Assembly (NCBI GenBank): GCA_026400835.1
Contig: JAPLOA010000042.1
Coordinates: 1 to 64,000 of the forward strand
Direction of reading: 5' to 3'
Source: Planctomycetales bacterium
GTDB lineage: Bacteria; Planctomycetota; Planctomycetia; Planctomycetales; Planctomycetaceae
Length of the DNA: 64,000 bases
Shown: positions 7,341-63,605 of the stretch, in pieces
Numbering within the stretch: the stretch's first letter is position 1
Layout of the letters: each line of letters begins with the position of its first letter
Notes under the pieces: model-generated
What the model saw: the letters and a program-made list of their open reading frames with translations, nothing else
Database searches by the model: none
What the model was told of the DNA's origin: nothing
Translations under genes and position numbers: made by a program

Positions 7341-7528
7341 GGGTGTAGTCGCCTTTGCTTATCAAAGCAGGTCCTTTCTGCCGGAAAGGATTTTCGCCGC
7401 AAGGCGAACCATGTGTGCAACTGGCTGAGGATCGCTACTGGCTTTATCAATCCCGTTGCACAGAGGTCGCGGCAAGCCGCGAAGTCCTCCTCGGCAAGGA
7501 GGACCCACCGAAATCGCCAACTGCACCC
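7341..7528. repeat. REPIN-like element, copy A (subtype 1)
   Basis: Fills most of the 7154-7650 gap, which has no gene. Its ends are inverted copies of GGGTGTAGTCGC. Inside are two hairpin pairs facing outwards: on the left GTCCTTTC..GAAAGGA (7371-7390) plus TTCGCC-GCAA-GGCGAA (7393-7408), on the right TCGCGG-CAAG-CCGCGA (7467-7482) plus GTCCTCCT..AGGAGGAC (7484-7504). The head is GCAG on the left (7367) and CCAC on the right; other copies show GTAG/CTAC. The roughly 55-base interior is conserved with copies B and D. Confidence 0.8.
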
Positions 7529-7650
7529 AAACACCGACGAAACAAGGAGTAAGCCTTTAATTTGTCCTCAAACCTGCGATCATCTGAAGTCGGTTCTCAA
7601 CCTGGGCCGAGCGTTTCTGCGTTTGATTTCTTCCTGCCGAGCTTCCTGCC

Positions 7651-10600
7651 ATGAACCGGATCTGCATATCTCGCTGGCCTGTCACCTGTTTGATGGCAGT
7701 TCTGTACTTATCAGTGCTGCCATTCAGCCATGGGGATGATGTTCACTTCAATCGCGATGTGAAGCCGATCCTTTCTCAGAATTGTTTTCAATGTCACGGG
7801 CCCGATGATGCTCATCGAGCCGCAGGGCTGCGTCTCGACCAAAGAGACGCTGCAATGAAGCCCGCCGAATCCGGCGCGGCTGCGATTGTGCCCAATGATC
7901 CTGATAACAGCGAACTGTTGAAGCGAGTGACATCGTCCGATACAGACCTCCACATGCCGCCCGCTGAATCAGGAAAACTGCTCACGGCAGAGCAGATCGA
8001 AACGCTCCGCCGCTGGATCAAACAAGGAGCGAAGTACGAGGGACATTGGGCGTTTGAGAAAGTGCTATCACCTGCAGTGCCTCAGGTCTCCGCCGAATCT
8101 GCTTCCTTAGTTGCCAATCCGATTGATTCGTTCATCATCGCGAAACTGCAGTCACAGGGCATGAAGCCGTCTTCGGAAGCCGATCGCGTTACTTTGCTGC
8201 GACGCGCGACTTTGGATATCACCGGATTGCCGCCGACATTGGAAGAGATTGACGCGTTCCTGAAAGATGAGTCGCCAAAGGCCTGGGAGAATGTTGTCGA
8301 TCGCCTTCTCGCCTCACCGCACTACGGCGAGCGCATGGCGATCAGTTGGCTGGATAATGCTCGCTACGCCGACAGCAATGGATTTCAGGTCGACAGCAGT
8401 CGCGAAATGTGGGCCTGGCGCGACTGGGTGATCAACGCTTACAATTCCAACATGCCGTTTAATCAATTTACCATTGAGCAATTGGCCGGTGACATGTTGG
8501 CCAATGCGACTCAGGATCAGATTATCGCGACGGGGTTCAATCGCAATCATCGCCTGAACGGAGAAGGCGGTCGGATTGAACAGGAATGGTTTGTGGAAAC
8601 GGTTATTGATCGAGTCGAAACGACAGGACTGACATGGCTTGGACTGACTCTGAATTGCTGTCGCTGTCACGATCACAAATACGATCCGGTTTCGCAGCGC
8701 GAGTTCTATCAGCTCTTTGCATACTTTAACTCAGTCGAAGAATCCGGTGTGCTGGCACCGACGACAAGACGGGCCGAGAATACTCCTCCGTTGATGACGC
8801 TGTTGACGCCTGAGTTGGAACAGCAGCGAACAGAACTGCAGCAAACGGTGGCCACGGCGACAACTCAACGCGATAACGTGGCCAGGACATTGCCCGAGCT
8901 GATGGCTGCGTGGGAAGTTCATGTCAAAGCACGAGAGACCCGGCCGGTCTGGCAAATGTTGGAGCCTCGCAGCGTGACTTCGGTCGGTGGTGCGACGATG
9001 ACTCGGCAGGACGATGGCTCATGGCTGGCCTCAGGGCCCAATCCGGCGAACGACGAATACCGAATTGAGATTCCTCTGGAGTCCAATCGCCTGTCGGGCA
9101 TTCTGCTGGAAACATTGCCCGATCCATCTCTCCCCGCACAGAGTCTGGGGCGAGGATTCAATGGGAACTTTGTGCTGACGGGGGTCTCTGCGGAGTTGCA
9201 AGTCGGCGATGCGGCTCCTGTCGCCGTGTCATTGAAGAAAGTCCAGGCGGACTACGAGCAGCCAAACTACACAGCGGCAAAAATTCGTCTGGATGTTCGG
9301 CCGACAGAGGGGCGAGGTACCGAAGCGTTTGGCTGGGCCATCGACGGCAATGACCCCGCAAAGAAGATTGCCCGCCGCGTTTTCTTTGCTCCGCAAAGTC
9401 CGGTCGAAGCCGCTGCGGGTTCGGTGTTGATCATTCGCATCACTCACGATTCGCAGTTTGGGGATCACAATGCCGGGCGCATTCGACTTTCTGTTTCCGA
9501 TGCGGACAGCGATCAGGTCGGTCTGGGCGATGGTGGGTTCCCCGCCGATGTTCGGGCCATTCTCAATCTTGCTCAGGAGTCCCGCAGTGCGGACCAGACT
9601 GCTCAACTGCAGAAGTACTTTCGCGAGCAAACAGACAACCCGATTCGAAAAGCACAAAGTGCTCTGACGGATGCGGAGGCAAAAGTGGTGGAGTTCAATG
9701 CTAACCTTCCGACGACCATGGTCATGAAAGAAACGAAGCCGCGAGAAGCCTTCATTCTGACTCGCGGTGAATACGATCGCCCGACGGATAAAGTTCAGCG
9801 ATCCACACCGGCGTTTCTGCCTCCTCTGCCTGAAGGCGCCAGCAACGATCGACTCGGATTCGCGCAGTGGGTTGTCAGTGATACGAATCCGTTGACCGCG
9901 CGGGTTTGGGTGAATCGGGAATGGGAGCGATTTTTTGGTACAGGACTCGTGAAGACCAGTGAGAATTTTGGATCGCAGGCCGAATATCCGAGTCACCCGG
10001 AACTGCTTGACTGGCTGGCCGATCAGTTTTTGCATCCGACGACACTGCCTGCGGTCGTTGGCAAGTCCGCTCAGGCCTGGGATATGAAAGCGTTACAGAA
10101 ACTGATTCTGATGAGCGCGACGTATCGGCAGACATCTCACACCGACAAGGATCGACTCGCCCTTGATCCCGACAATCGACTGCTTTCGCGTGGTCCTCGT
10201 TTTCGTCTGTCGGCCGAATTGATTCGCGATCAGGCTCTAGCTGTCAGCGGTCTGCTGGTCAACAGGATTGGCGGTCCCAGCGTTCGCCCGTATATGCCGG
10301 AAGGTGTCTGGGACGAAACCAGCAAGTACGGTGACTTGCGTGGTTACAAGCATGACAAAGGCGAAGGACTGTATCGTCGCACGATGTATACGATCTGGAA
10401 ACGCACGGCCGCTCCGCCAAGTTTGCTGCTGTTCGATGCGACCAATCGCGAAGTCTGCACGATCAAGCGATCTCGAACAAATACGCCTTTGCAGGCTCTG
10501 GCTCTGCTGAATGAAGTCACCTTCGTGGAAGCTGCACGTGGCCTGGCACTGCGCATGGTCGAGGAGGGCGGCTCAACAGATTCGGATCGACTGATCTACG

Positions 10601-10830
10601 GATTTCGACTTGTCATCGGACGTTCACCTTCGGCCCATGAACAACAGGTGCTTGCGGTAGGGCTGCAGTCTGATCGAGCGACCTTTACACAATCACCGGA
10701 CGCTGCCGCTCAGCTGCTGAAGGTCGGCGACTTGTCGGTCAAGGGTACACTGGATCCCGTCGAGCTTGCGACATGGACCACCACTGCGAACGTCCTGTTG
10801 AACCTTGATGAATTCGTGACGCGAGAATAG
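7651..10830 (+). CDS. Planctomycete cytochrome c / DUF1549 / DUF1553 secreted protein
   Basis: 1059 residues. A signal peptide is followed by a PSCyt1 cytochrome c domain with the heme motif CFQCH (Cys45, Cys48, His49), a DUF1549 domain (from about residue 153, NPIDSFIIAKL then ATLDITGLPPT), a middle region with jelly-roll-like segments, and a DUF1553 domain (about 700-1000, with NFG..AEYPSHPELLDWLA and TNTPLQALALLNE). The family is almost confined to planctomycetes and relatives, and its members are often next to DUF1501 genes and sulfatases. The biochemical role is unproven; electron transfer linked to polysaccharide breakdown has been suggested. Here the DUF1501 gene is convergent and vsr lies between them. 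Confidence 0.88.
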   Translation: MNRICISRWPVTCLMAVLYLSVLPFSHGDDVHFNRDVKPILSQNCFQCHGPDDAHRAAGLRLDQRDAAMKPAESGAAAIVPNDPDNSELLKRVTSSDTDLHMPPAESGKLLTAEQIETLRRWIKQGAKYEGHWAFEKVLSPAVPQVSAESASLVANPIDSFIIAKLQSQGMKPSSEADRVTLLRRATLDITGLPPTLEEIDAFLKDESPKAWENVVDRLLASPHYGERMAISWLDNARYADSNGFQVDSSREMWAWRDWVINAYNSNMPFNQFTIEQLAGDMLANATQDQIIATGFNRNHRLNGEGGRIEQEWFVETVIDRVETTGLTWLGLTLNCCRCHDHKYDPVSQREFYQLFAYFNSVEESGVLAPTTRRAENTPPLMTLLTPELEQQRTELQQTVATATTQRDNVARTLPELMAAWEVHVKARETRPVWQMLEPRSVTSVGGATMTRQDDGSWLASGPNPANDEYRIEIPLESNRLSGILLETLPDPSLPAQSLGRGFNGNFVLTGVSAELQVGDAAPVAVSLKKVQADYEQPNYTAAKIRLDVRPTEGRGTEAFGWAIDGNDPAKKIARRVFFAPQSPVEAAAGSVLIIRITHDSQFGDHNAGRIRLSVSDADSDQVGLGDGGFPADVRAILNLAQESRSADQTAQLQKYFREQTDNPIRKAQSALTDAEAKVVEFNANLPTTMVMKETKPREAFILTRGEYDRPTDKVQRSTPAFLPPLPEGASNDRLGFAQWVVSDTNPLTARVWVNREWERFFGTGLVKTSENFGSQAEYPSHPELLDWLADQFLHPTTLPAVVGKSAQAWDMKALQKLILMSATYRQTSHTDKDRLALDPDNRLLSRGPRFRLSAELIRDQALAVSGLLVNRIGGPSVRPYMPEGVWDETSKYGDLRGYKHDKGEGLYRRTMYTIWKRTAAPPSLLLFDATNREVCTIKRSRTNTPLQALALLNEVTFVEAARGLALRMVEEGGSTDSDRLIYGFRLVIGRSPSAHEQQVLAVGLQSDRATFTQSPDAAAQLLKVGDLSVKGTLDPVELATWTTTANVLLNLDEFVTRE

Positions 10831-10835
10831 CACTT

Positions 10836-11252
10836 GTGTCTGACGTGCATTCACCGGAACAGCGTTCGTTCAACATGTCACGGATTCGTTCCCGCGATAC
10901 GAAGCCGGAGATGGTTGTGCGATCGTTGGTTCATCAAATGGGCTATCGTTTCCGACTTCACAAGAAGGGGCTGCCCGGAACTCCCGATCTGGTCCTGGCG
11001 GCTCATCGAAAAGTTATTTTTGTGCACGGCTGTTTTTGGCACATGCATCGCTGTCGTTACGGAAAAGTAACGCCCGCGACGAACACTGAGTTCTGGCAAA
11101 ACAAACGCGGCGGCAACGTGACTCGCGATGAGCGCAATCGTCGCCAATTAAAAGCGGCCGGCTGGTCAGTGCTCGTGATCTGGGAATGCTGGACTCGAGA
11201 CATTGAAGGGCAGCTCCTGCCGAGGCTGCAGCGGTTTTTAGAGCCAAATTAG
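10836..11252 (+). CDS. vsr: Very short patch repair endonuclease
   Basis: 138 residues from a GTG five bases after the preceding stop, so the two genes are probably co-transcribed. The sequence matches Vsr closely: MSRIRSRDTKPE near the N-terminus, PGTPD with Asp51, then FVHGCFWHMHRC with His64 and His69. These are numbered exactly as the catalytic Asp51, His64 and His69 of the Escherichia coli enzyme. Cys66, His71, Cys73 and Cys118 can form its structural zinc site. Vsr nicks 5' of T in T:G mismatches made by deamination of 5-methylcytosine and is usually beside a cytosine-5 methyltransferase gene. No such gene is in the window. Confidence 0.93.
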   Translation: MSDVHSPEQRSFNMSRIRSRDTKPEMVVRSLVHQMGYRFRLHKKGLPGTPDLVLAAHRKVIFVHGCFWHMHRCRYGKVTPATNTEFWQNKRGGNVTRDERNRRQLKAAGWSVLVIWECWTRDIEGQLLPRLQRFLEPN

Positions 11253-11305
11253 CGTTTGGGACGGCAGCAAGTTTGAGATTTGTAACAATCCACGGGTTGG
11301 CGCTC

Positions 11306-11371
11306 GTAGTGTGGGCTTCAGCCCGCATGCGATTGAAATTCACGCTGACTGTCGACTGAAGTCGATGCTAC
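11306..11371. repeat. GTAG-headed inverted repeat pair (REPIN-like, second family)
   Basis: Left unit is GTAG (11306) followed by TGTGGGCT-TC-AGCCCGCA. The right unit, read on the minus strand, is GTAG (11371-11368) followed by a CATCGACTTCAGTCGA palindrome. The two heads face outwards as in a REPIN. It lies between the convergent ends of vsr and the DUF1501 gene and could also act as a bidirectional terminator. Confidence 0.6.
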
Positions 11372-11385
11372 GAATCAGGCCCCAT

Positions 11386-12876
11386 CTACAAAATCGCGTG
11401 GATCGGTTGGCCATAATCGAGGTCCAGCCGCTTTCGTCCAGGAACCTCCAGGCGGCGAGCATTCAGGCCCAGTTGATGCATCACGGTGGCATGCAGGTCT
11501 GTCACGTAATGTCGATCTTCAACGGCATGGAAGCCGATCTCATCGGTTGCTCCGTGAGCAATGCCGCCTTTAACTCCGCCTCCAGCCAGTGCGACTGAGA
11601 AACCATACGGATGATGATCGCGTCCATCGGAATTCTGGAAGCCCGGTGTGCGACCGAACTCTGTGCCGATCACGACCAACGTTTCGTCCAGCAATCCGCG
11701 CTCTTTAAGATCTCGCAACAGGCCGGCAATCGGTTGATCGACCTGCTTGCAGAGCGTCGAGTGATTGCTCTTCAGGCCACTATGAGCATCCCACGACCCC
11801 GCGCCGCCGTTGCTTCCGTGAAACAACTGCACGAACCGAACTCCGGATTCAACAAGACGTCGCGCCACAAGGCACTGCTGGCCGAATGTCTTTGTTGGAT
11901 CCTGATTCAGGCCGTACATCTCCTGAGTACTTGCGGTCTCCGCCGAGAAATTAATCACATTTGGCAGAGCTGACTGCATGCGAAACGCCAGCTCGTAAGA
12001 TTTGATTCGAGCCTTCAACGCCGGGTCATCGGGGTACTCGATGGCGGACAAACGATTGAGCCGTCCCAGCAGTTCAAATTCGCTTTGCTGCTCCTCGCGA
12101 TAAACTTCGGAACCCGGAGTTGCGAACGGCAGCGGATTCGCGGGATCGACATTCAGGTGAATACCGGCATGTTCCGGGCCGAGATAATTGGCACCATGAG
12201 CACCCAATCCACCGCAGCAATCAGCGATCGGAGTCCCAATCACACAGAAGCTTGGCAGATTCTCATTCAACGTTCCCAGGCCATAGTTAACCCATGAGCC
12301 GATCGTCGGAAACTGTCCCTCCAACGCATGCCGGCCCGTATGAAACTGCAACTGGGCTCCGTGATTATTATCCGTTGTCCACATTGAACGCACGATCGCA
12401 ACGTCATCAATCATGTCACCCAAATGAGGCCACCAGTCGCTGACATCCAGCCCGCTTTGCCCTCGTCGCGAATGACCAATCTGCATCGGGTAAAGCTTGG
12501 GGTGCGCATGATGCAGGCCCGGAATGAACTCGCGCAGATTCTTTTTCAGATAGGGCGAATCGAGCACACTCTTGAACGGAGTTTCATCGACCGACATCCC
12601 GGAGTATTTATTCAGCGCCGGTTTCGGGTCGAAGGATTCCATCTGCGACATCCCGCCCACCAGAAAGATCCAGATGACACTCTTCGCTTTGGGCGTCATG
12701 TGAGCCAGTCCGGACGGCAATCCCGCGGCGGTCGATTCCGAGGCTCGCACGATGCCGTCTCGCTGCAACATGGCTCCGAGTGCGAGCCCCGTGAAGCCCA
12801 TGCCGATATCAGACAGAAACGTTCGACGCGATGCCGGGCCGGGAGAAGCGGGAGTCGTTGCAGGATTCGATTTCAT
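11386..12876 (-). CDS. DUF1501 family protein with Tat signal
   Basis: 496 residues. The N-terminus has SRRTFLSDIG followed by a hydrophobic stretch, a twin-arginine export signal. The body is DUF1501: IWIFLVGGMSQMESFDPKP, later GFRFVQLF-type HGSNGGAGSWDAH, VVIGTEFGRTPG and DGRDHHPYGF, with the conserved His/Asp residues of an alkaline-phosphatase-like fold. Members are commonly the partner of DUF1549/DUF1553 genes. Here it is convergent with that partner rather than downstream on the same strand. Substrate unknown. Confidence 0.88.
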   Translation of the reverse strand: MKSNPATTPASPGPASRRTFLSDIGMGFTGLALGAMLQRDGIVRASESTAAGLPSGLAHMTPKAKSVIWIFLVGGMSQMESFDPKPALNKYSGMSVDETPFKSVLDSPYLKKNLREFIPGLHHAHPKLYPMQIGHSRRGQSGLDVSDWWPHLGDMIDDVAIVRSMWTTDNNHGAQLQFHTGRHALEGQFPTIGSWVNYGLGTLNENLPSFCVIGTPIADCCGGLGAHGANYLGPEHAGIHLNVDPANPLPFATPGSEVYREEQQSEFELLGRLNRLSAIEYPDDPALKARIKSYELAFRMQSALPNVINFSAETASTQEMYGLNQDPTKTFGQQCLVARRLVESGVRFVQLFHGSNGGAGSWDAHSGLKSNHSTLCKQVDQPIAGLLRDLKERGLLDETLVVIGTEFGRTPGFQNSDGRDHHPYGFSVALAGGGVKGGIAHGATDEIGFHAVEDRHYVTDLHATVMHQLGLNARRLEVPGRKRLDLDYGQPIHAIL

Positions 12877-12982
12877 GGCAAAGCTTTTCCGGGAGGAAAA
12901 TAGTGGACAGGACGTCCGGGAGGGCTGCTGGATACTTTCAGCATTGGCAAAAGCATACGATGGAGATTATGCCGTTGTCTAT

Positions 12983-13059
12983 GTACGTTGGACATTCTTG
13001 TCCGACTCGATGTCGATCTGGGGATGTTCATTCTACCTGGGCGGACATTTCCACCCTAC
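12983..13059. repeat. Dispersed hairpin repeat (GGAC-ATTCTT-GTCC family)
   Basis: Begins with GTTGGACATTCTTGTCC, a four-base stem hairpin, and ends in a CCACCCTAC arm, which read on the other strand is GTAG followed by GGTGG. A second copy with the same left arm lies at 36617-36672. It sits just upstream of the cinA-like gene between divergent transcription units. Confidence 0.5.
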
Positions 13060-13091
13060 GATTAAGCTGATCGAAAACACTAGAATCCCTT

Positions 13092-13649
13092 ATGACCAAA
13101 CCTGAAACACTCGATCCCATCGCATTCCGGGCCTTTGAACTGCTGAGGAAGACCAATCAAGTGCTCGTCACCGCAGAGAGTTGCACGGCCGGACTGATTG
13201 CCGCCACGCTGGCTCGAGTTCCTGGGATGTCGACCGTTCTGGCCGGTGGATTTGTCGTTTATCAGATTGAAAGCAAAGTCGCGTGGATGAACATTTCTCC
13301 AGCCGTGATCGAGCAACATGGCGTCGTTAGTTCTGAGGTCGCTCAGTTAATGGTCGATGCCGCATTGCGGAACACGGCCCACGCCACGATCTCGGTCAGC
13401 ATTACCGGACATCTCGGTCCAGATGCCCCTGTTGATCTGGACGGCATCGCGTGGCTGGGATTTGCACAGCGAAATTATCCTTGCTGCTCGCACAAGCTTC
13501 ATCTGCAGACCACAATACCAGAACCCACCAGCACAACTTTTACAGACTCAGAACAACGACTGTTTATTCGCCACGAGCGACAGCAGGATGCGGTACGTCA
13601 GTCGTTGAGTTTTCTCTGCAAGAAACTGGAATCTTTCCATGAACATTAA
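13092..13649 (+). CDS. CinA C-terminal domain protein (nicotinamide-nucleotide amidohydrolase type)
   Basis: 185 residues, the length expected of a stand-alone CinA C-terminal (PncC) domain. The signature VTAESCTAGLIAA with the active-site serine is at about 31-43, followed by GGFVVYQIESK and the HGVVSSEVAQLMV segment and SITGHLGPDAP. PncC deamidates nicotinamide mononucleotide to nicotinate mononucleotide in NAD recycling. The C-terminal third is less typical, so the activity is inferred. Its end overlaps the start of the next gene by 11 bases. Confidence 0.82.
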   Translation: MTKPETLDPIAFRAFELLRKTNQVLVTAESCTAGLIAATLARVPGMSTVLAGGFVVYQIESKVAWMNISPAVIEQHGVVSSEVAQLMVDAALRNTAHATISVSITGHLGPDAPVDLDGIAWLGFAQRNYPCCSHKLHLQTTIPEPTSTTFTDSEQRLFIRHERQQDAVRQSLSFLCKKLESFHEH

Positions 13650-14655
13650 ATGGTGCCTTTGCCTGATCGCTCTCATTCTCTTCGCAGGTTGTGAAGAGTC
13701 CAAACGGGACACCGTGACGAAAGCCACCAGCACCGCCGGAGAAAAAGTCGTCACCCAGATGGCGTTGAACTGGTATCCTGAAGTCGAACACGGAGGATAT
13801 CTTGCGGCGGACACTCTGGGACTTTTTGACAAGAATGACCTCGACGTCGAGATTATCCCAGGCGGTCCCGGTGCGCCACAGGGGATCATTCAGGAGCTGG
13901 CTGCGGAGCGAATTCAATTCGCAGTGTCCGATGCTGATAATGTCGTTAAGGCGCGAGCGGCGGGAGTTCCGATTGTTGCTCTGATGGCTCCTCTGCAAAG
14001 CAATCCGCGTTGCATTATGGTGCATGAAGCATCCGGAATTACAAAGCTGGAAGAACTGGTCAACGTGGAGTTGGCGATCAGTGATTCTCGCCCGTTTGCA
14101 TTGTGGATGAAGAAGAAACTTCCTCTCACCAATGTTCGCATGGTGCCCTTCAACGGATTGGTCGGCGAGTTTCTCGTAAAGCCCGATTTCGCTCAGCAGG
14201 GTTACGTGTTTAGTGAGCCGTTCGTCGCGAAAGAAAAAGGTGGAGATCCGAAAGTGCTGATGGTTTCTGACATTGGTTTCAATCCTTATGCCAGTGTACT
14301 TGTCACGACAGAAACCGTAATCAATCAACGCCCCGATCTGGTGAAGGCGGTGGTTTCGGCCAGTGTTAAAGGTTGGCAGCAGTACCTCGCTGACGCAACA
14401 AAGACGAATGAAGCGATTCACGGGATGAATAAGGACATGAGTCTCGAAGCGCTGAAATATGGAGTCGAAGCGATGGCTCCACTTTGCAAGACCGATCAGG
14501 GCGTGGCGGCTTGCGGGATGACTCTCGAACGCTGGCAGACGCTGGTTCAGCAGATCGAGGAACTGGAAGACATTCCCAAAGGTTACGTGAAGCCCGAAGA
14601 GTGCTTCAATGTGACGTTTCTGCCCGCAGCCGCCGAAGCAGCCGCAGCAAAGTAA
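13639..14655 (+). CDS. NMT1/SsuA-like substrate-binding lipoprotein
   Basis: 338 residues. A lipoprotein signal with lipobox LFAGC places the mature protein on the outer face of a membrane. The body is a periplasmic-binding fold of the NMT1/THI5 group: MALNWYPEVEHGGYLAADTLGLFDKNDLDV near the start, then GGPGAPQG and a SDADNVVKARAAGVPIV ligand-loop segment. Relatives bind thiamine precursors, sulfonates or nitrate for ABC import. No permease or ATPase is adjacent; the only near neighbour is the overlapping CinA-like gene, so the substrate cannot be inferred. A vitamin-precursor or nucleotide-related ligand is possible. Confidence 0.82.
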   Translation: MNIKWCLCLIALILFAGCEESKRDTVTKATSTAGEKVVTQMALNWYPEVEHGGYLAADTLGLFDKNDLDVEIIPGGPGAPQGIIQELAAERIQFAVSDADNVVKARAAGVPIVALMAPLQSNPRCIMVHEASGITKLEELVNVELAISDSRPFALWMKKKLPLTNVRMVPFNGLVGEFLVKPDFAQQGYVFSEPFVAKEKGGDPKVLMVSDIGFNPYASVLVTTETVINQRPDLVKAVVSASVKGWQQYLADATKTNEAIHGMNKDMSLEALKYGVEAMAPLCKTDQGVAACGMTLERWQTLVQQIEELEDIPKGYVKPEECFNVTFLPAAAEAAAAK

Positions 14656-15433
14656 TGATTTGGTTCGAAACGATAGCCATGAATGGTGAGCCTGCGTTCG
14701 CTGGGGCGAACTTGTCACACCCTACAAATTGCAATGTTTTCCCGTAGCGTGTGACAACTGAGCCTTAGCGAAAGCGGGCACATCGGTTGAGCTTACCCAC
14801 CGGCATCCAGCGAGAGTATCAGGATGGTGTCGCCATCGCTGATCGGGGTTGTTGCGTCGGTTGTGAATCTATCTCCGCTCAGGTTCGCGGTATATTCCGC
14901 CCAAAGATGTGGCCCGTCGAAACAGCACTCGCCAGGCCCCGGAAATCATTGCGAAAGGGACGCGGCAAGATCGCCCCGGGTCCTGACTGTGGCTGTGGCC
15001 TGAGCAACCCCGGCTCTTGCACGAGGAATGACGTAAAACTCAACATGAATCTGTGCCACCAGGTAATTCCCTGAGCAAGAGGCAGAGATTGTTGCGCTTG
15101 CAGCGCGGCGTTTTCGACTTATTATTGAACATCGAACCGGCGCTGAATCATACCGTTAATCCCCCGGAGATCGAATCCCAGAGCGGTCCGCAGTACTGAT
15201 GATCTGCGGTCTGGCACAGGCTGCTCTGGCGGGTAAATCACGGATCAACAAGGCTCCACAGCTCAGATCGGCGACGTAACAACGGCGGACCGCAAGTGCG
15301 TAACGCTCGGGAAAACTGCTCTTCGCGCAGAAGGGATTGCAACATAGATTTCAAACCTCTCCTTCGGCTGGTTTTGCGCCAGAGATTTCTCAATGGCGTA
15401 AATTGGCTCCTTTCTGTTAACTCTCATTCCCCA
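14656..15433. repeat. Long gap with a GTAG-headed palindromic repeat at 14684-14784
   Basis: The repeat has a left arm GGTGAGCCTGCGTTCGC..TTGTCACACCCTAC and a right arm (from 14744) GTAGCGTGTGACAA..GCGAAAGCGGGCACATC that is its inverted complement. The GTAG head in the right arm opens a long imperfect hairpin. Related copies are at 18211-18308 and 57158-57257, with single arms at 29281-29325 and 45620-45660. From 14785 to 15433 I see no gene or RNA; it is probably the promoter region of the rsmH cluster, but no convincing promoter hexamers stand out. Confidence 0.6.
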
Positions 15434-26828: not shown

Positions 26829-27016
26829 GGGTGTAGTCGCGGATGCTTGTTAAAGTAGGTCTTTTCTGCCGGAAACGACTTTCGCCGCAAGGTGAACTAA
26901 GTCTGCAATTCGGTTAGGATTGCGACAGCATTTATCAGTCCCGTTGCACAAAGATCGCGGCACGCCGCGAAGTCCTCCTCGGCAAGGAGGACCTACCGAG
27001 ATCCGCGACTGTACCC
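26829..27016. repeat. REPIN-like element, copy B (subtype 1)
   Basis: Ends are GGGTGTAGTCGCGG on the left and its complement CGCGACTGTACCC on the right. Both heads are canonical: GTAG at 26854 and CTAC at 26992-26995. Left hairpins are a GTCTTTTC..GGAAACGAC stem and TTCGCC-GCAA-GGTGAA; right hairpins are TCGCGG-CACG-CCGCGA and GTCCTCCT..AGGAGGAC. The interior (GTCTGCAATT..TATCAGTCCCGTTGCACAAAG) matches copies A and D. The rest of the 26546-27127 gap holds no firm gene. Confidence 0.82.
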
Positions 27017-37879: not shown

Positions 37880-38066
37880 CGTCGTGGATGGATATTTGAG
37901 TAGGTCCTTTCTGCCGGAAAGGATTTCGCGGCTTGCCGCGACATTGTGTGCAGGTATTTCGATATTGTCGGTGCCGGGTTTGGTGAAACAGCGTCGCGAC
38001 GGGTTCGCCTGGCGGCGAAAGTCCTGCCCGGCAGGCAGCACCTACCGAAAGCCGCGACTACACTGC
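37880..38066. repeat. REPIN-like element, copy C (subtype 2)
   Basis: Heads are GTAG at 37900 and CTAC at 38042-38045; the right end is CGCGACTACACT. Left hairpins are GTCCTTTC..GGAAAGGA and TCGCGG-CTTG-CCGCGA; right hairpins are TTCGCC-TGGC-GGCGAA and GTCCTGCC..GGCAGCAC. The interior (TGTGCAGGTATTTCG..GGTGCCGGGTTTG) differs from copies A, B and D but resembles copy E. It occupies the centre of the 37621-38072 gap, which has no gene. Confidence 0.8.
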
Positions 38067-38072
38067 TCTAGA

Positions 38073-50071: not shown

Positions 50072-50459
50072 GGAACAGGCATGATATAGGTCCCGCTTGC
50101 CTGACTCCGAAGCGTCAGTTTTGAAGTTGCGCTGTTCAGGACTGCCGGAGATCAACGGGGCGAAAACAAAGGGGATTATCATAACCCGACGCGTGAGCGA
50201 GGGATTTGCGGAGACATGAGTAAAACGCGACAGCTCAATCCCTCACTCACGTTTCGGGTTGTGATGGCCGCAAATGCTCAACTTCAAAAAGCGTCGGCGA
50301 GGGATCGAGTTGTGGTACCAAGTCCCTCGCTGACGCGTCGGGTTGTGAATTCAAGGTATGGAAACATCCGGAGATTAACCTTTGACTGTTCCCCACCGAC
50401 TATCCTGAGTTGCTAACCGGCAGACATTGAATTCTTAACAAAGTATCGTTGTTTGCGGG
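50072..50459. repeat. Gap filled by palindromic repeats (50100-50360)
   Basis: A cluster of aacccg..cagcgaggga family arms in alternating orientation: near 50183 (AACCCGACGCGTGAGCGAGG), 50238 (ATCCCTCACTCACGTTTCGGG), 50297 (GGCGAGGGATCGAG) and 50321 (GTCCCTCGCTGACGCGTCGGG). Order and spacing resemble the cluster at 32850-33105. No gene. Confidence 0.7.
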
Positions 50460-50739: not shown

Positions 50740-50920
50740 GCGTAGCTAAGGATGATTGGCAAAAATAGGTCCTTTCTGCCGGAAAAGGACTTTCGCCGAA
50801 AGGCGAACTTTGTCTGCAATTTGGTCAGGTTTCGAGGCTGTGTGGTACTATCCCATGCACAGAAGTCGCGGCAAGCCGCGAAGTCCTGCCCGGCAGGCAG
50901 GACCTACCCCAATACTCATC
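50740..50920. repeat. REPIN-like element, copy D (subtype 1)
   Basis: Left unit: ATAG at 50765 followed by GTCCTTTC..GGAAAAGGAC and TTCGCC-GAAA-GGCGAA, where the loop GAAA replaces the GCAA of copy A and both are GNRA tetraloops. Right unit: TCGCGG-CAAG-CCGCGA then GTCCTGCC..GGCAGGAC and CTAC near 50904-50907. The stem change CCT/AGG (copies A, B) to GCC/GGC (copies C, D) keeps pairing, a compensatory change. The rest of 50631-51070 shows no gene. Confidence 0.8.
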
Positions 50921-51661: not shown

Positions 51662-51685
51662 TTGTATTGCATGATGAACGCAGAC

Positions 51686-52495: not shown

Positions 52496-52530
52496 GTTCT
52501 GCTATCAAGATATGTCGTCTGACACACAGT

Positions 52531-52578: not shown

Positions 52579-52596
52579 GCAACTGGCATCGGCCGG

Positions 52597-53391: not shown

Positions 53392-53562
53392 TGGAGTTTC
53401 TTACTTTCGTCGGTGGAGTATGCGTGGTGTAAAAGCCTGTAAACCAGCGGGGTAAACCCTGGTGATATGGACTTAGGCTCGACTTATCAGAATGGGCTTT
53501 TCCAGCGGGTTGAAAAACATCCTATTGCAACAAGATTCAGTGGGACAATGGTCGTTCTGATT

Positions 53563-53633
53563 TCGCCTCGAAGAGGCGTCAGCATTTAGCCACAGGCTTT
53601 AGCCTGGGGCTAAATGCTGCCGCGGCTACACCG
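53563..53633. repeat. Nested hairpin repeat with CTAC end
   Basis: GCCTC-GAA-GAGGC is followed by AGCATTTAGCC .. GGCTAAATGCT (53581-53619), an 11-base perfect stem enclosing CAGGCT-TT-AGCCTG. It ends GCCGCGGCTAC (CTAC at 53626-53629), a GTAG head on the minus strand. It sits after the pyruvate carboxylase stop and may act as its terminator. Confidence 0.6.
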
Positions 53634-53679
53634 CGAAACACAACCCGAAACAACGGACCCAAACTTGCGCAATCCCGGG

Positions 53680-57129: not shown

Positions 57130-57547
57130 GAATTCTCAAACCACTAAAGACTCAACCGGTGAACCTGCGTTCGCAAAGGCTCACTTGTCACACCCTACAG
57201 GAAAACATTGCAATTTGTAGGGTGTGACAAGGTCGCGCTGGCGACCGCAGGCACACCATTTACGGATATTATTTCGAACCAGTTCCTCAGAGGATACCCA
57301 CAAGAATTGGAGACCCTCATTCCTGGCCCGGCACAGAATAGCCCAAGTGCGAACGACAATCCACCAGCGGCGTAAAGAGTTGCAGCGACTCAAATGAGAA
57401 GTGAGAAATGGTCGGTCGGCGTGGCGCGATTTGCCTCAAAAAAAGACTTTCCCGAGCCTTCACGCTTGCGAACCAAGGATTCGGTATACTCTCCGGTGAC
57501 CAGATTGCTGGTGGTCCGATATCCTCAGAGAACGACCGAGATCTTTA
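57130..57547. repeat. Gap with GTAG-headed palindromic repeat at 57158-57257
   Basis: Left arm GGTGAACCTGCGTTCGC..CTTGTCACACCCTAC (ends 57199), then a short spacer, then the right arm GTAGGGTGTGACAAGG..GCGACCGCAGGCACACC (from 57217). Same family as 14684 and 18211. From 57260 to 57547 no gene is seen; a TATACT at about 57486 could be a -10 box but has no convincing -35. Confidence 0.6.
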
Positions 57548-57763
57548 GTGATGACTGTACCGAAATGCTGCCTCATTTGCGGCCAGCCGAAGCGCCATCT
57601 GGTTTCGGGGAAACTGGTGAGAAGCACGATTGCGCAACTGATTCAGTCGAATCATCCGGAGTGGAACGAACAGAGTTTCATTTGTCTCGATGATGTGAAT
57701 GATGTGAACCAGTTTGGACGTCAGTACAGCGCACGGATGGCGGATGTGAGGAAAGGTGAATGA
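57548..57763 (+). CDS. Small CxxC protein
   Basis: 71 residues (GTG or ATG at 57548/57551). It starts VPKCCLICGQPKRHLVSGKLVRSTIAQLIQSNHPEWNEQSFICLDDVN. The CxxC pair plus the later ..FICLDD.N resembles the N-terminal metal-binding module that in other bacteria precedes DUF1003 membrane proteins; here the membrane part is absent. It may be a stand-alone module or a truncated gene. It ends 15 bases before the lhgO start and is probably co-transcribed with it. Confidence 0.55.
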   Translation: MMTVPKCCLICGQPKRHLVSGKLVRSTIAQLIQSNHPEWNEQSFICLDDVNDVNQFGRQYSARMADVRKGE

Positions 57764-57778
57764 TGTCGGGGAAAACAA

Positions 57779-58969
57779 ATGTACGTTTTTGATGCAGCGA
57801 TCATCGGCGGAGGCATCGTAGGACTTGCGACCGCGTGGCAGTTATCGCGACTGAAACCCGAATGGAAACTGGTGGTGATCGAGAAAGAATCGACTCTCGC
57901 GTTTCATCAGACCGGACGAAACTCGGGCGTCATTCATTCGGGCATCTATTATCGTCCGGGATCGCTGCGAGCACGCAATTGCCGTGAGGGGAAATTACTG
58001 CTCGAACAGTTCTGCACGGAGCATCAGATTGCGTGGAATCGAACGGGCAAGGTCATCGTCGCCACGCAGGAAAGCCAACTAGCCCAATTGCAGAAGATCT
58101 ACGAACGTGGCCAGCAGAACGGTGTCGATTGCCGGATTATTGATCGCAGTCGGCTTCTTGAGCTGGAACCGCACTGTGCCGGGATTAGAGCGATTCATGT
58201 GCCGGAGTCCGGGATCGTGGATTATCCCGGAGTCTGCCAGAAGCTGGCCGAGTTACTAAGAGCGTCCGGAGCAGAGATTTATCTGAACGCCTGCGTCGAG
58301 TCGATGGAACAGAGAGCCGACTCCGTGAGAGTGACGACGTCCACTGGCATTGTAGAAGCGAAGCAGGTCATCAACTGCGCCGGTCTGCATAGTGACCGAG
58401 TTGCTCGTCAAAGCGGGCTCCCCATGAAGGAGATGATTGTTCCGTTTCGCGGAGAATACTTTGAACTCAAGCCTGCCGCTCAGCATCTCTGCCGAACCTT
58501 GATCTATCCGGTCCCTGATCCTCGTTTCCCGTTTCTCGGCGTCCATTTCACGCGGATGGTTCATGGTGGCGTGGAGTGCGGTCCCAACGCCGTCTTCGCG
58601 CTGGCTCGCGAAGGGTATAATTGGGGAACGATGAACGCTCGAGATCTTTGGGAGTCCTTAACTTATCCCGGCTTCTGGCGGTTGGTCTCAAAGAATTGGA
58701 GAACCGGCCTCGGAGAAGTCTGGCGGTCACTCTCGAAAGCCGCCTTCGTCAAAGCGTTGCAGCAGTTGGTTCCGGAGATCCGATCAGAACATTTGGAGGC
58801 CGCACCCGCCGGAGTTCGTGCGCAGGCGCTTGGACTTGATGGCAAACTGGTTGACGATTTCGTCATCCTGCGGCATGAGCGAGTCGTCAATGTGTGTAAC
58901 GCGCCGTCCCCTGCAGCAACGGCTTCGTTAAATATCGGGAAGCATGTGGCCGAGCTGGTGATCCGATAA
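57779..58969 (+). CDS. lhgO: L-2-hydroxyglutarate oxidase
   Basis: 396 residues. N-terminal FAD-binding [19 protein letters not shown] (GGGIVG at 10-15), then [34 protein letters not shown], characteristic of Lhg[30 protein letters not shown] and the C-terminal [27 protein letters not shown] close the flavin site. It oxidises L-2-hydroxyglutarate to 2-oxoglutarate and passes electrons to the quinone pool or oxygen. Context gives no sign of the CsiD system. Confidence 0.92.
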
Positions 58970-59079
58970 ATTCTGCTACGGACTTCCTAACTTCCCGCAG
59001 AGAACTAAGATCCGCAGGTCAGACGCTGTAAACCTGAAAACGTGAGGACGACATAACGCGTCCAGGTTTCGCTACACAC

Positions 59080-59112
59080 TTTGAATCGGTGTCTTTGAAT
59101 CGGTGTCTTTGT
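59080..59112. repeat. Short tandem repeat, unit of 14 bases
   Basis: TTTGAATCGGTGTC is present twice in direct succession, followed by a partial third unit (CTTTG). It lies 25 bases before the start of the next gene, just upstream of its AAGGA ribosome-binding site, so copy number could affect expression. Confidence 0.7.
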
Positions 59113-59136
59113 CAATGACCGCAGAAGGAACGATGG

Positions 59137-59958
59137 ATGTCAGAGGATGAAGGATTCGTTTGCGTAATCTCGGCCATTACGACATTAATCAGCTGGCTAT
59201 GGTGGTACGGACTTCTCGTTAAAACAAAACCTCCACTGATCGTGGGCAGAACGGCATCGACCAAAACCCTGGCCGTGATACCGGTCATCGCGTTCGGCTT
59301 TCTGTTTGTCGTGCTTGCAATGTGGTCAGCCAGCGATGTGAGGAATGACGGTCGGTATGTGACGATGTACCTTCTGATGGGGATCGCCTGGTGCGGAGCC
59401 GCCAGTTTTATTCCGACGTCTATGGGGCTTAGTTTCCATAACGATGTTTTGAACCTGGCGAATCAGTCGGCCACCTGGCTGTGGCGTGGCTGGATTCTGG
59501 GGGCCATGATGACGTTCGCTAGTGCCAACATCGGCAATGGGCCCGGCTGGTGGGTTGTGGCCTTCAGTGGGATTCTGTCAACGGGTTCGCTGACGCTTGT
59601 GTACTGGCTTCTTGAGAAGCTCGGGAACACTCATGACGCGGTCACAATCGATCGTGATCTCGCGACGGGCCTCAGGATGGCCGGAGTCTTTATCGGATGC
59701 GGTGCTGTGTTTGGAGTGGCAGTCGCCGGAGACTGGAAATCGGCGGACGAAACCGTTCGAGATTTTCTGACGAGGGCGTGGCCCGCAGTAGCGATTCTTC
59801 TCGCCGCAGTTTTCTTCAATGCGACGATGAAGCCAACCCCGCAGAATCCTCGCCCGGCTGTGATGAGCTGTGGGCTGATTCCCATGCTTGTTCTGGCTCT
59901 GATCGGACTCATCTGGGCTGTTATCGAAGGGGCTTCAGTCGTTGGAGCGGCCGCATGA
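59137..59958 (+). CDS. Multi-pass membrane protein, first gene of a three-gene operon
   Basis: 273 residues with about seven to eight hydrophobic helices (TTLISWLWWYGLLV, VIPVIAFGFLFVVLAMW, MYLLMGIAWCGAASFI, WILGAMMTFASA, WVVAFSGILSTGSLTLVYWLL, AGVFIGCGAVFGVAVA, AWPAVAILLAAVFF and the final LIPMLVLALIGLIWAVIEG). No transporter family recognised. AAGGA seven bases upstream supports the ATG at 59137. The stop overlaps the next ATG (ATGA at 59955-59958), so the two products are made together. Confidence 0.65.
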   Translation: MSEDEGFVCVISAITTLISWLWWYGLLVKTKPPLIVGRTASTKTLAVIPVIAFGFLFVVLAMWSASDVRNDGRYVTMYLLMGIAWCGAASFIPTSMGLSFHNDVLNLANQSATWLWRGWILGAMMTFASANIGNGPGWWVVAFSGILSTGSLTLVYWLLEKLGNTHDAVTIDRDLATGLRMAGVFIGCGAVFGVAVAGDWKSADETVRDFLTRAWPAVAILLAAVFFNATMKPTPQNPRPAVMSCGLIPMLVLALIGLIWAVIEGASVVGAAA

Positions 59959-61232
59959 CTCCATTGAGTTGCGGATCTCTGATTCCGCGTTCAACCTTCG
60001 CGACGATCCGTCGTCAGATGGTGCTCGAATTCTGCAAGTGGGATCCTCAGGTCGAAGACGTTTCTACCTTGTGTCCCTATTCTTTGTTGTTGCAACAGGA
60101 TGCGTGGAACCAGTTGATTCAATGGTCGGAACAACTGGCGGACGAGACTTTGAATGTGGAAGCAGAACTGTTGCAGCGACCGGATCTGCTCTGTCAACTG
60201 GGGCTGCCGCGACCGATCAGAAGGCTGTTGACGCGGGCGAAGTCTCCAGCGTCCGCTTCTTTTGCCAGGATTATGCGGTTCGACTTTCACTGGACAACGG
60301 ACGGCTGGAGAATCTCCGAGGTCAATTCAGATGTCCCCGGAGGCTTCATCGAATCATCGGCTTTCACACATCTGATGGAGCAGGTGACTCCGGCCACGAT
60401 GAGCCCCGGAGATCCCGCAGGCCTGTATGCCGAAGCGATCGCTCAGTGCGGAATGCAAAGAATCGGCCTGGTTCATGCCACAGCTTACAGTGACGATCGT
60501 CAGGTGATGACTTACCTTGCTCAGCGACTCCGACAGCAGAATGTCGAAGCATTTTTGGGCAGTCCAGCCGATGTCGCGTGGTCAGAGGGGCACGCGTCAC
60601 TTCGCAGCGGATCGCAGTTGCAGGATGTTGACGGCCTTGTACGATTCTTTCCCGGGGAGTGGCTTCCGAATCTGAAACAGCGACCAGTTTGGGAACCGTT
60701 CTTTGTTGGTGCGCGGACGCCGATCAGTAATCCGGCGACGGCTTTGGTCAGTCAGAGTAAACGTCTGCCTTTAGTCTGGGATCGATTGAAAACACCCGTG
60801 CAGACGTGGAAGGAACTTCTTCCGGAGACCGCTGATCCTCGACGAGTTCTCTGGAAACGTGATGACCGCTGGGTTCTGAAACCGGCGTTGGGACGAGTTG
60901 GTGAGATGATTGGGCTGCACGGGGTGACTTCCGGCAAAGACTGGCGCGCGATTCGTCGGAGTGCGACCTGGTGGCCCGGACACTGGGTTGCTCAGAAGCG
61001 TTTTCAGATGCAGCCATTGGCAGGGCCGCAGGGAGTCGTCTATCCCGTGATTGGCGTTTATACGGTCGATCGCAGAGTCACAGGGATCTATGCTCGCCTT
61101 GCTCAGCAGCCATTGATTAACCATCTGGCGCAGGATGTGGCTGTGCTGATTCCTCAGCCATCATTTGTTGACGAAGCCTCCGATGTCGCTGGATCCAGCA
61201 TGAGTTCTCAGGAAGGGGGAGTATTGAGATGA
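59955..61232 (+). CDS. Glutathionylspermidine-synthase-like ATP-grasp protein
   Basis: 425 residues. The N-terminus has no signal. FARIMRFDFHWTTDGWRISEVNSDVPGGFIESS (about 105-135) is the EVN.D.PGG motif of the glutathionylspermidine synthase pre-ATP-grasp domain. PRRVLWKRDDRWVLKPALGRVGEMIG (from about 295) supplies the ATP-grasp lysine, and VYPVIGVYTVDRRVTGIYAR closes the fold. The family joins glutathione to spermidine in a few bacteria and trypanosomatids; in most genomes its members have other, undefined ligase roles. The gene overlaps both neighbours by four bases. Confidence 0.75.
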   Translation: MTPLSCGSLIPRSTFATIRRQMVLEFCKWDPQVEDVSTLCPYSLLLQQDAWNQLIQWSEQLADETLNVEAELLQRPDLLCQLGLPRPIRRLLTRAKSPASASFARIMRFDFHWTTDGWRISEVNSDVPGGFIESSAFTHLMEQVTPATMSPGDPAGLYAEAIAQCGMQRIGLVHATAYSDDRQVMTYLAQRLRQQNVEAFLGSPADVAWSEGHASLRSGSQLQDVDGLVRFFPGEWLPNLKQRPVWEPFFVGARTPISNPATALVSQSKRLPLVWDRLKTPVQTWKELLPETADPRRVLWKRDDRWVLKPALGRVGEMIGLHGVTSGKDWRAIRRSATWWPGHWVAQKRFQMQPLAGPQGVVYPVIGVYTVDRRVTGIYARLAQQPLINHLAQDVAVLIPQPSFVDEASDVAGSSMSSQEGGVLR

Positions 61233-61993
61233 ATCGAACGGATGCTTTTGCAGCATGGGGGCCCGATCTGCCGGATGATGAGTTTGGTCCCGCATGGACT
61301 CAGTGGGCCAAGCCGGTGTTGTTTGCGTCGATCAGCGAAGCAGCTCCTCCCATCGCACTGCAGGAAGAACATTTGTCAGGGCTGGAATCAGAAATCCGGT
61401 CGCGAGACAAATCGGTTGCCATCGTGGTCGACCTGCCCGGACCTCAGGCGGCCCGGATCGGACTCGCCTGCGCGAGGATGGGACTGCGGCCGGTGCCATT
61501 GTTCAACGGAAGTTCGGGCCCGGAAGAATTGATCGTGACCGGCGAGCTGATTGAGACATTGCGTGCGGGTGGCATCCAACTTCAGTCTCAGCCGCTTTCG
61601 AACAATGCCGCACCAGCGTTCCTGCTGGATTCGCGACGAATGTCTCAGGACGTCAAGCCCAGCCCCGGGAAGTTCGACAATCGCTGGCTGACGTTTCCTC
61701 AGGACTTCCCTTCGGCCAATCTTTTGATTGCACGAGGTATCTCTACGGTAATTGTGATTCAGCCGAAGACTGGTCAGCCAGCCGAGGATCTTGCTCATGT
61801 GCTGCGTCGCTGGCAGGACGCGGGGATGTCAATCCAGACTGCAGTGTCGGAGTCGACCGCAGCCGAACCGATCGAAGTGAAACGTCCGGCTCGTTTTCGT
61901 CGGCTCTGGTATGGAGTACTTGCCTTGATGGGACTGATGTCCAACAGCGCCGGAGGATTCGGTGGGGTGATTCCGCATCATTCGTCTGGTTAG
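61229..61993 (+). CDS. Unknown protein, third gene of the ATP-grasp operon
   Basis: 254 residues with no recognised family. A Rossmann-like segment AIVVDLPGPQAARIGLACARMGLRPVPLFNG (about 65-95) has a GxG-free nucleotide-fold look. The C-terminus holds a hydrophobic stretch (RLWYGVLALMGLMSNSAGGFGGVIPHH) that could be a membrane anchor or be buried. It overlaps the preceding gene (ATGA at 61229-61232). It presumably works with the ATP-grasp and membrane proteins as a unit. Confidence 0.55.
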   Translation: MNRTDAFAAWGPDLPDDEFGPAWTQWAKPVLFASISEAAPPIALQEEHLSGLESEIRSRDKSVAIVVDLPGPQAARIGLACARMGLRPVPLFNGSSGPEELIVTGELIETLRAGGIQLQSQPLSNNAAPAFLLDSRRMSQDVKPSPGKFDNRWLTFPQDFPSANLLIARGISTVIVIQPKTGQPAEDLAHVLRRWQDAGMSIQTAVSESTAAEPIEVKRPARFRRLWYGVLALMGLMSNSAGGFGGVIPHHSSG

Positions 61994-62043
61994 TGCTGTG
62001 AACTCAGACAGGTCTTATGGCTACTTTGGGAAACGTTTGCATT

Positions 62044-63411
62044 ATGAAATCTGCGCTCCGGGTTTTGTCGAATCTGTTTGTCTGTGTTGTTGCTGTGTCG
62101 GTTCCTGCGTTGGATCGGGACTGCGTCGTTTGGGGCGCTGATCCGGTCGCGCTGGAGAAAGATCCAGGCCTTGTCGCAAACTGGCATCAGTGGCGAGGAC
62201 CCGCGGGAAATGGTTCGGCACCGGAAACCGCGAATCCTCCTGTGAGCTGGGATGCAACGAAGAATGTAAAGTGGACGGCTGAGATTCCCGGCACTGGATC
62301 TGCAACCCCGATCGTCTGGGGGCGGCAGATTTTTATCCTGTCGGCAGAAGAGACTGATCGAAAAGCAGAAACGGTGCCTGAAAAGCGAGCGGACTCGAAG
62401 ACGGAGCCGCCCGGAGTCTACTATCGTTTTCTGGTCACGAGTTTTGATCGCAACACTGGAGAAGTCCTCTGGCAAAAGGTCGCGACGGAGCAGGTGCCTC
62501 ACGAAGGTCGACATCCAACTCATACCTATGCGGCTGGATCTCCCACAACCGATGGCGAACTGCTGTATGCGTCGTTTGGATCTCGAGGACTGTTTGCCTA
62601 CACGCTGGACGGCGAACTTGTCTGGCAGAAGGACCTTGGCGACATGAATACTCGCTTCGGCTGGGGCGAGGCTGTTACGCCTGTGTTGGCTGGCTCGTTG
62701 CTGATTGTGAACTGGGATCAGGAGCAGGATTCGTTCATCGTGGCGTTGGACAAGAAGTCCGGTGAAGAACGCTGGCGGAAAGCACGTGATGGAGAAGCCA
62801 CTTCCTGGAACACCCCGTTGATCACAACAGTCGGAGAGAAAACGGTTGCGGTCGTCAACGGTTCCGGGAAAGCTCGAGCCTACAATGTTGCTGACGGTGA
62901 CATGCTTTGGGAGTGCGGTGGTCAGACGGTTAACGCGATTCCGTCGCCGGTGCAGTTCGGCGATTTTGTGGTCTGTATGAGTGGATACAAAGGAGCGGCC
63001 TCTTATGCGATCCCGTTAAACTCCAGCGGGGATCTTACGGGCTTAGATCGCTTTGTCTGGACCTTCCACACCGGCACACCGTATGTTCCTTCGCCGACCG
63101 TGAGTGGCAATCGTTTGTATTTCACTGGCGGCAACAACGACATTCTCACAGCCCTCGATCTGGCATCGGGCAAAGCGGTCATTGAAAAGCAAAGACTGGG
63201 AATCGGCAACACCTATGCGTCTCCGCTGGCTGCCGGAGGCAAGGTGTATTTTGTTGGCCGAGAAGGTGCAACAACCGTGATCAGTGATGATGCGGAAGCA
63301 AAGATTCTTTCCAAGAACATCATCAACGACACCTTTGATGCCTCACCGGTCGTGATTGGCAAACAACTGCTGCTGCGGAGCTGGTCAAAGTTGTATTCGA
63401 TCGAAGAATAG
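62044..63411 (+). CDS. Secreted PQQ-type beta-propeller protein
   Basis: 455 residues from ATG 62044; an ATG at 62017 with an AGG site adds nine residues. A signal peptide (VLSNLFVCVVAVSV) is followed by WHQWRGPAGNGSAPE and repeated PQQ/BamB-like blades (VKWTAEIPGTGSATPIVWG, TGEVLWQKV, LDGELVWQKDLG, SGEERWRKA, GDMLWECGG). No heme or PQQ ligand set is complete, so a structural or substrate-binding propeller is likely. Single gene on its strand; the downstream gap holds REPIN-like copy E. Confidence 0.8.
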   Translation: MKSALRVLSNLFVCVVAVSVPALDRDCVVWGADPVALEKDPGLVANWHQWRGPAGNGSAPETANPPVSWDATKNVKWTAEIPGTGSATPIVWGRQIFILSAEETDRKAETVPEKRADSKTEPPGVYYRFLVTSFDRNTGEVLWQKVATEQVPHEGRHPTHTYAAGSPTTDGELLYASFGSRGLFAYTLDGELVWQKDLGDMNTRFGWGEAVTPVLAGSLLIVNWDQEQDSFIVALDKKSGEERWRKARDGEATSWNTPLITTVGEKTVAVVNGSGKARAYNVADGDMLWECGGQTVNAIPSPVQFGDFVVCMSGYKGAASYAIPLNSSGDLTGLDRFVWTFHTGTPYVPSPTVSGNRLYFTGGNNDILTALDLASGKAVIEKQRLGIGNTYASPLAAGGKVYFVGREGATTVISDDAEAKILSKNIINDTFDASPVVIGKQLLLRSWSKLYSIEE

Positions 63412-63500
63412 TCCAGCGCGGCGTTCCGAAGTCAAAACGTTTTTTCGCGTCTTGAAGCAGGCGCACGGCACCGCGTTATTCGAAACCAGGGCAGGTTGCA

Positions 63501-63605
63501 GGGTGTAGTCGCGATTGTTTGTCAAAGCAGGTCCTTTCTGCCGGAAAGGACTTTCGCGGCTTGCAGCGACGTTGAGTGCACGCGGTTTGATCATGTTGGG
63601 GCCGG
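63501..63605. repeat. REPIN-like element, half copy E (subtype 2), in a gene-free gap
   Basis: GGGTGTAGTCGCG at 63501 and GCAG at 63527 lead into GTCCTTTC..GGAAAGGAC, followed by TCGCGG-CTTG-CAGCGA. The start of the interior (GAGTGCACGCGGTTTGATCATG..GGGGCCGGATTTG) resembles copy C, but the right-hand unit is missing. The rest of 63412-63896 shows no gene. A further GTAG-headed unit, CCATGGGC-GTGA-GCCTTAGG, begins at 63872. Confidence 0.65.

Follow-up and report, generated by a model that had tools for sequence, protein, structure and literature searches.

REPINs (REP doublets forming hairpins, REP being a repetitive extragenic palindromic sequence) are usually described as dependent on their REP-associated tyrosine transposase (RAYT). 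The dependence model is summarised in PMC3733652, and the part of that paper available to us also reports REPs with a GTAG head from the Planctomycetes-Verrucomicrobia-Chlamydiae (PVC) superphylum, Rhodopirellula baltica being named. Here we describe a repeat family of a Planctomycetales bacterium from a stretch of 64,000 nucleotides (the window: assembly GCA_026400835.1, contig JAPLOA010000042.1, positions 1 to 64,000), whose copies are probably nested miniature elements, with a REPIN as the cargo of an ISKra4-type miniature inverted-repeat transposable element (MITE) and with two possible vehicles. The family resembles the REPIN/RAYT system (bacterial interspersed mosaic element, BIME; REPtron) in its GTAG head, covarying hairpin, inverted pairs, arm-flanked RAYT-like gene and duplication-free bare copies, but differs from it in having two hairpins per arm and in that many copies lie inside the ends of an unrelated transposon. 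With the GTAG REP families of R. baltica and other PVC bacteria it shares the GTAG REPs, the many tyrosine transposase genes and a planctomycete host, a likeness based on description and not on a comparison of consensus sequences; the available part of PMC3733652 makes no mention of such nesting in a MITE. Terminal repeats beside ISKra4 transposase fragments and 8-9 bp duplications are shared with the ISKra4 family (p-MULT 4, Mutator-like DDE), a group placed among the elements making 8- or 9-bp direct repeats in the part of PMC3942029 available, whereas in the window there are short derivatives without coding capacity that carry a REPIN. A joining of REP-like units with other inverted repeats is also known from two Pseudomonas RAYT genes, at which degenerated GTAG-1 units occur together with unrelated stem-loops, but neither target duplications nor DDE transposon ends are described for them in the same part of PMC3733652. 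No description of a REPIN inside a MITE was found in the open-licence literature among the matches listed (titles and abstract openings).

The core hairpin GGTCCTTTCTGCCGGAAAGGA has five matches in the window (≤3 mismatches), compared with a mean of 0.00 in 100 shuffled sequences. All five lie at the places to which the original prediction, made from the letters of the window, had assigned a hairpin repeat family, and the family is thus real. Both outer ends are present at 7341-7528 and 26829-27016; in the third copy the left end is decayed, in the fourth the right end is unrecognisable, and 63501-63580 is a left half. Reading and alignment of the copies gave the order left end (LE), GTAG-type head, hairpin 1, hairpin 2, TGTGTGCA and spacer, after which the same order runs in reverse, with a right arm unlike the left one and then the right end (RE). 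Hairpin 1 has an 8-bp stem and a TGCCG loop, and when 7367-7508 was folded as single-stranded DNA five hairpins were obtained (z -4.2 vs 200 shuffles). As predicted, the hairpin is preceded by GTAG or a one-base variant, five of the nine window arms having the exact motif and the remaining four a variant. The inner unit, GTAG...CTAC, is about 142 bp long, and bare copies of it, which show no target duplication, are found too.

The outer inverted ends GGGTGTAGTCGC had been taken for parts of the REPIN, and this claim did not hold. They are not REP features, and by sequence match correspond to the terminal repeats of an insertion sequence of the ISKra4 family (DDE, Mutator-like). The 16-mer GGGTGTAGTCGCGGAT was found at 165 sites of the genome with ≤3 mismatches, compared to 32 for the reversed control, and many of these sites form inverted pairs which bound 143 bp around a different palindrome and contain no REP arms. 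The right end (..GATTTCGGTAG) and the left end (..GATGATTGT) of the MITE match ends beside ISKra4 transposase fragments. At four loci (L400, L405, L409 and L424; L, G and C numbers denote loci, genomes and contigs) the tip of a right end with the sequence GGGTGCAGTCGCGGATTTCGGTGAAGTGTC, or one differing little from it, is found some 30 bp beyond the stop codon of the transposase, and further right ends follow transposase fragments at L440, L446, L451 and L454. The left end lies upstream of the transposase N-terminus in L422, as GGGTGCAGTCGCGGACGATTGCGC, and also in L419 and L421. Fragments matching the ISKra4 transposase model NF033572 were found in the sister genomes G014, G012 and G011, all of them partial and below the whole-protein cut-off of 205 bits; the sole match above this cut-off, in G008, is without such ends.

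Target duplications were looked for in 71 candidate end-pairs from the window's own genome and its relatives, of which 48 were kept (≤3 mismatches per end, one per left flank; the nested site L219 is counted twice among the 48). L092 was among the dropped pairs because of more than three mismatches, though its flanks match at 9 of 9 bases. The identity of left and right flanks in the 48 elements peaked at 9 bp (0.576 vs 0.269 in shuffled pairings, z 13.3), and a second, lower peak was present at 8 bp (0.398, z 6.1). The latter is not a shadow of the 9-bp peak, since separate copies carry the 8-bp matches. Eight or nine of nine flank bases match in 18 elements; counted per element, 22 match at ≥7 of 9 and a further nine at ≥6 of 8. 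The 9-bp identity was 0.510 vs 0.279 (z 5.8) in the REPIN-bearing elements (n=17), of which four match at 8 or 9 of 9, six at ≥7 of 9 and five more at ≥6 of 8, and it was 0.573 vs 0.280 (z 8.8) in the arm-free ones (n=26). Given ISKra4-type terminal repeats and 8-9 bp duplications, the window copies are therefore most likely REPINs lodged within a DDE-type MITE, or what is left of one, placed by such a transposase and not by a RAYT. It is extremely improbable that they are instead REPINs with unusually long ends, in which case a RAYT would move the whole 188 bp with the GGGTGTAGTCGC ends as part of its substrate. A RAYT-like gene and REP doublets do exist, and the GTAG heads directly adjoin the outer ends, but the same ends bound the 143-bp elements without REP arms and adjoin the ISKra4 transposase fragments, the elements have 8-9 bp duplications, and the doublets beside the RAYT-like gene lack the ends.

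Unoccupied sites were found as other copies of a host repeat, not as orthologous loci. The joined flanks of L096, a REPIN-bearing composite of the sister genome G017, match empty repeat copies in the window's genome, the best being 86.9 % over 160 bp at 50130-50289, and the occupied site is longer by 7-8 bases, which fits the prediction for a target duplication. For the arm-free L219 an empty counterpart was present in L110 (93.75 % over 160 bp, gapless). The interspersed repeat of the window at 50130-50289, the insertion target of the G017 composite, is multi-copy and was also seen in L018, L071, L074 and L114.

A DNA search of the window's genome gave 49 matches at E ≤10 (best 40 of 67 candidates scored). 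With a covariance model built from 36 arms and a cut-off of E ≤0.01, at least 97 arms were found in this genome; as scoring was confined to the best 150 of 4742 first-look candidates, 97 may be a lower bound. These comprise 76 arms in 38 inward pairs and 21 single arms, so that pairs are commoner than single arms, a check set beforehand. The inter-arm spacer as modelled is 36-38 bp in 22 of the 38 pairs, whereas the distance between the two second hairpins is close to 55 bases, in agreement with the interior of roughly 55 bases in the original prediction. The exact GTAG head is found in 27 and 31 of the 38 pairs for the two arm types (58/76 overall), and most of the others are one-base variants. 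The claim that pairing is kept through compensatory stem changes was borne out for hairpin 1: 96.2 % of 288 cells are paired in the 36 arms, 48 cells are changed on both sides vs 14.4 in shuffles, and a single stem pair reads U-A in 13 arms, C-G in 12 and G-C in 10. Pairing falls to 43-59 % when the stem is slid by 1-3 columns, a comparison which favours the hairpin-1 structure because the structure was derived from the same arms. Two weaker measures of covariation were less clear: 5/8 pairs are changed on both sides, a number reached by 38/500 shuffles, and there was no excess of further pair types in the stem (9 vs 10.5 in shuffles). The GNRA loop proposed for the second left hairpin is present in many arms of one type but not in all, a simple script giving GCAA in 17, GTAA in 3 and GAAA in 1 of 38, and another loop or none in the rest. 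Planctomycete GTAG REPs in inverted pairs, here pairs of two unlike arms, are thus confirmed, but GTAG REPs from such bacteria had already been published, as the available part of PMC3733652 states.

Both outer ends abut the GTAG heads in 14 of the 38 pairs (13 with ≥70 % identity at each end, C109:37900 being assigned by eye), one end does so in nine, and 15 have none. In the 15 end-free pairs homology stops at GTAG. Bare pairs (n=14: 13 of the 15 end-free pairs and C73:115675, in which part of the left end is retained, with two tandem copies beside the RAYT-like gene omitted) showed no flank-identity peak at any k from 2 to 14. It is quite unlikely that the family is a plain ISKra4 MITE in which the internal hairpins have no more than a likeness to REPs and a RAYT plays no part. 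The window copies, being end-bounded or remains of end-bounded elements, would fit such a MITE, as would the coincidence of the right-arm GTAG with a GGTAG in the right ends of arm-free elements, e.g. L073, and the five arm-rich genomes, named below, in which no close arm-flanked RAYT was seen. However, 15 of the 38 pairs are without ends, their homology breaking off at GTAG, the bare pairs have no duplication, and RAYT-like genes adjoin these arms in three genomes.

Arms at E ≤1e-4 were found in nine of the 18 genomes of the genus (94, 102, 51, 138, 17, 27, 22, 31 and 2 arms, at most the 150 best candidates being scored per genome). The left end (≤2 mismatches) was found in 8 of the 40 genomes searched, all of the same genus and all among the nine arm-bearing ones. 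In G001 the arms number 102 and in G005 138, with only three such LE sites each, and most of their REPINs are therefore probably bare. These numbers also bear on whether bare pairs could be old composites with decayed outer ends and not independently moved REPINs, which we consider rather unlikely. Nine pairs keep one recognisable abutting end, and ends therefore do decay. A tree of the 38 cores (142 columns; bootstrap not settled) intermixed bare and composite labels, a weak signal in the same direction. On the other hand, some bare pairs have well-conserved arms (75.8 and 75.6 bits) while their flanks are 15-60 % identical to the ends, the REPINs beside the RAYT-like gene are without ends, and the more than 100 arms in each of G001 and G005 are accompanied by those few close LE sites. 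A single clade of composite and half copies was weakly rejected (p-AU, approximately unbiased test, 0.036). The mixing of classes in the core tree gives only a hint that REPINs may move into the MITE and out of it again.

A RAYT/Y1_Tnp gene flanked by the same hairpin had been proposed beforehand as a check on the family, and a RAYT-like gene so flanked was found in the window's genome. One of its 19 Y1_Tnp matches, G000:C78:47037-47645 (203 aa), is flanked by the same REP arms, with three tandem REPINs on one side and one arm on the other, and the REPIN doublets beside it are without outer ends. The translated protein contains PNHIHLF and DAYIVGNPRKAGL and scores 26.5 with Pfam Y1_Tnp, above the cut-off of 23. 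Its closest relatives in the genus are also arm-adjacent, in G012 on both sides (69 % identity) and in G014 on one side (63 %, partial protein). The proteins of these three genomes are the closest of the 26 matches in the genus and the only ones with arms alongside: the arm model gave no match beside the other 23 (flanks of up to about 1.5 kb, some ending at contig ends), nor beside the other 18 Y1_Tnp genes of the own genome (L031-L047 and L049; flanks of up to about 1.5 kb). A RAYT-like match is present in 11 of the 18 genomes of the genus, including all eight with outer ends.

Both units, their junctions, the duplications, the unoccupied sites, the association with a RAYT-like gene and the common insertion sequence ends were observed; movement by an ISKra4 transposase or a RAYT is what we infer from them. 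The inner unit is a REPIN of two inverted, unlike arms, each with a GTAG head and two hairpins, around a short spacer, and the C78 protein, similar to Y1 HUH transposases, is its likely cognate RAYT. This enzyme may cut single-stranded DNA at GTAG and move the unit without target duplication, giving rise to the bare copies. The REPIN of many other copies sits exactly between the LE and RE of an ISKra4-family insertion sequence, and an ISKra4 transposase acting in trans may have amplified the REPIN-bearing MITE, which would make the REPIN a cargo with two possible vehicles. We only tentatively suggest a fully two-vehicle unit, in which the RAYT (HUH Y1) copies the REPIN without duplication, a Mutator-like DDE transposase moves it with an 8-9 bp duplication, and REPINs enter and leave the MITE. 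If this were true, an insertion sequence could spread REPINs within and between genomes, including those that have lost their RAYT. The junctions, the duplications at the target and the empty sites all point to amplification of the REPIN by a second, unrelated transposase. REPINs could in this concrete way persist or travel without a RAYT, and the family provides a natural system for distinguishing HUH single-strand from DDE double-strand transposition of the same sequence, the 8-9 bp duplication being absent in the former and present in the latter.

Several results weigh against the nested, ISKra4-mobilised REPIN proposed here. No transposition was observed. With the NCBIfam model NF047646 'REP-associated tyrosine transposase' the C78 protein reached 73.7 bits (E 1.3e-20), below the cut-off of 80, and a second score with this model (70.2 bits, E 1.6e-19) was likewise below it. 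Genomes G001, G004, G005, G015 and G017 have 22-138 arms each, yet no close arm-flanked RAYT was seen in them. No duplication at 9 or 8 bp was found in 17 of the 48 end-bounded elements, among them 6 of the 17 REPIN-bearing ones, and the duplication of L096 is imperfect (3/9 at k=9, 6/8 at k=8). When the flanks of REPIN pairs were joined and matched, no bare REPIN was found to have a clean empty site, the matches being tandem copies beside the RAYT-like gene, self-matches and one short match. The window's genome, an assembly of 112 contigs which may collapse repeats, has no intact ISKra4 copy bearing these ends but only a decayed relic with a stop codon (C58:7082-7476), and no complete autonomous ISKra4 with both ends on one contig was found, the ends being on different contigs or in decayed copies. 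The coordinates of the window copies are given in Table 1.

Table 1 Features of the REPIN-bearing copies and of the unoccupied repeat in the window
Feature	Position	Strand	Remarks
Left copy of 9-bp target duplication, AAACACAGA	7332..7340	.	
ISKra4-type left end (LE), composite copy 1	7341..7366	+	
Left REP arm, copy 1	7367..7419	+	GCAG head, hairpin 1, hairpin 2, ATGTGTGCA
37-bp spacer, copy 1	7420..7456	.	Central hairpin folds with flanking TGTGCA/TGCACA
Right REP arm, copy 1	7457..7508	-	GTGG head
ISKra4-type right end (RE), copy 1	7509..7528	-	
Right copy of target duplication, copy 1, AAACACCGA	7529..7537	.	8/9 match
Composite copy 2	26829..27016	+	LE 26829-26854, RE 26997-27016
Composite copy 2, arms	26855-26907 and 26945-26996		
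Composite copy 2, flanks			GTGAGGGC/GCGAGGGC, 7/8 match
Composite copy 3	37880..38066	+	Left end decayed, arms 37900-37952 and 37993-38045, RE present
Copy 4	50740..50920	+	LE decayed, arms 50765-50818 and 50856-50907, right end unrecognisable
Half copy	63501..63580	+	LE and one arm (63527-63580)
Unoccupied copy of interspersed repeat	50130..50289	-	G017 copy of same repeat holds REPIN-bearing composite L096

Other candidates for the source of the ends were considered. L077 (C52:320694) was rejected as an autonomous parent, no transposase-like open reading frame (ORF) being evident by eye (no family search was made). In L112 (C52:320694), L086 and L094 a left-end-like site precedes a stretch which is conserved in both the own genome and G015 and has a possible ORF. 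L407 (C108), a weak NF033572 match in the own genome which we take to be an IS256-like transposase, is without such ends. The 16-mer scan of genome contigs gave at least 112 stretches, mostly from unrelated phyla, which look like chance matches; some planctomycete loci were used. G040 (Planctomycetota PLA4; L252, L384-L394) has a multi-copy insertion sequence with the same 16-bp terminus (12 matches). It was set aside, as 11 of the 12 matches, each of 96-98 bases, lie at contig ends, the contigs breaking off about 98 bases inside, before the body. Gene context was not used as evidence either: for 46 elements, crude ORF calls gave three convergent cases and ten 'inside ORF', the latter possibly spurious.

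Some variation was also seen in and around the arms. Short single REPs (GTAGGTCCTGCCTGCCGGGCAGCGG..., GTAGGTCCTTTCTGCCGGAAAGGACTGTGTTTG) occur in tandem beside or inside pairs at L029, C68:84881, C52:368295, L084, L360 and L367. At L107, L110, L111, L121, L125, L102 and L254 the arm breaks at or near the hairpin-1 loop and runs into CTCATCTTTACCCACAT-like sequence; candidate readings of these variants are a further type of cargo or an insertion that targets the loop. At L107 the CTCATCTTTACCCACAT-like junction is found at both arms, as an inverted repeat.

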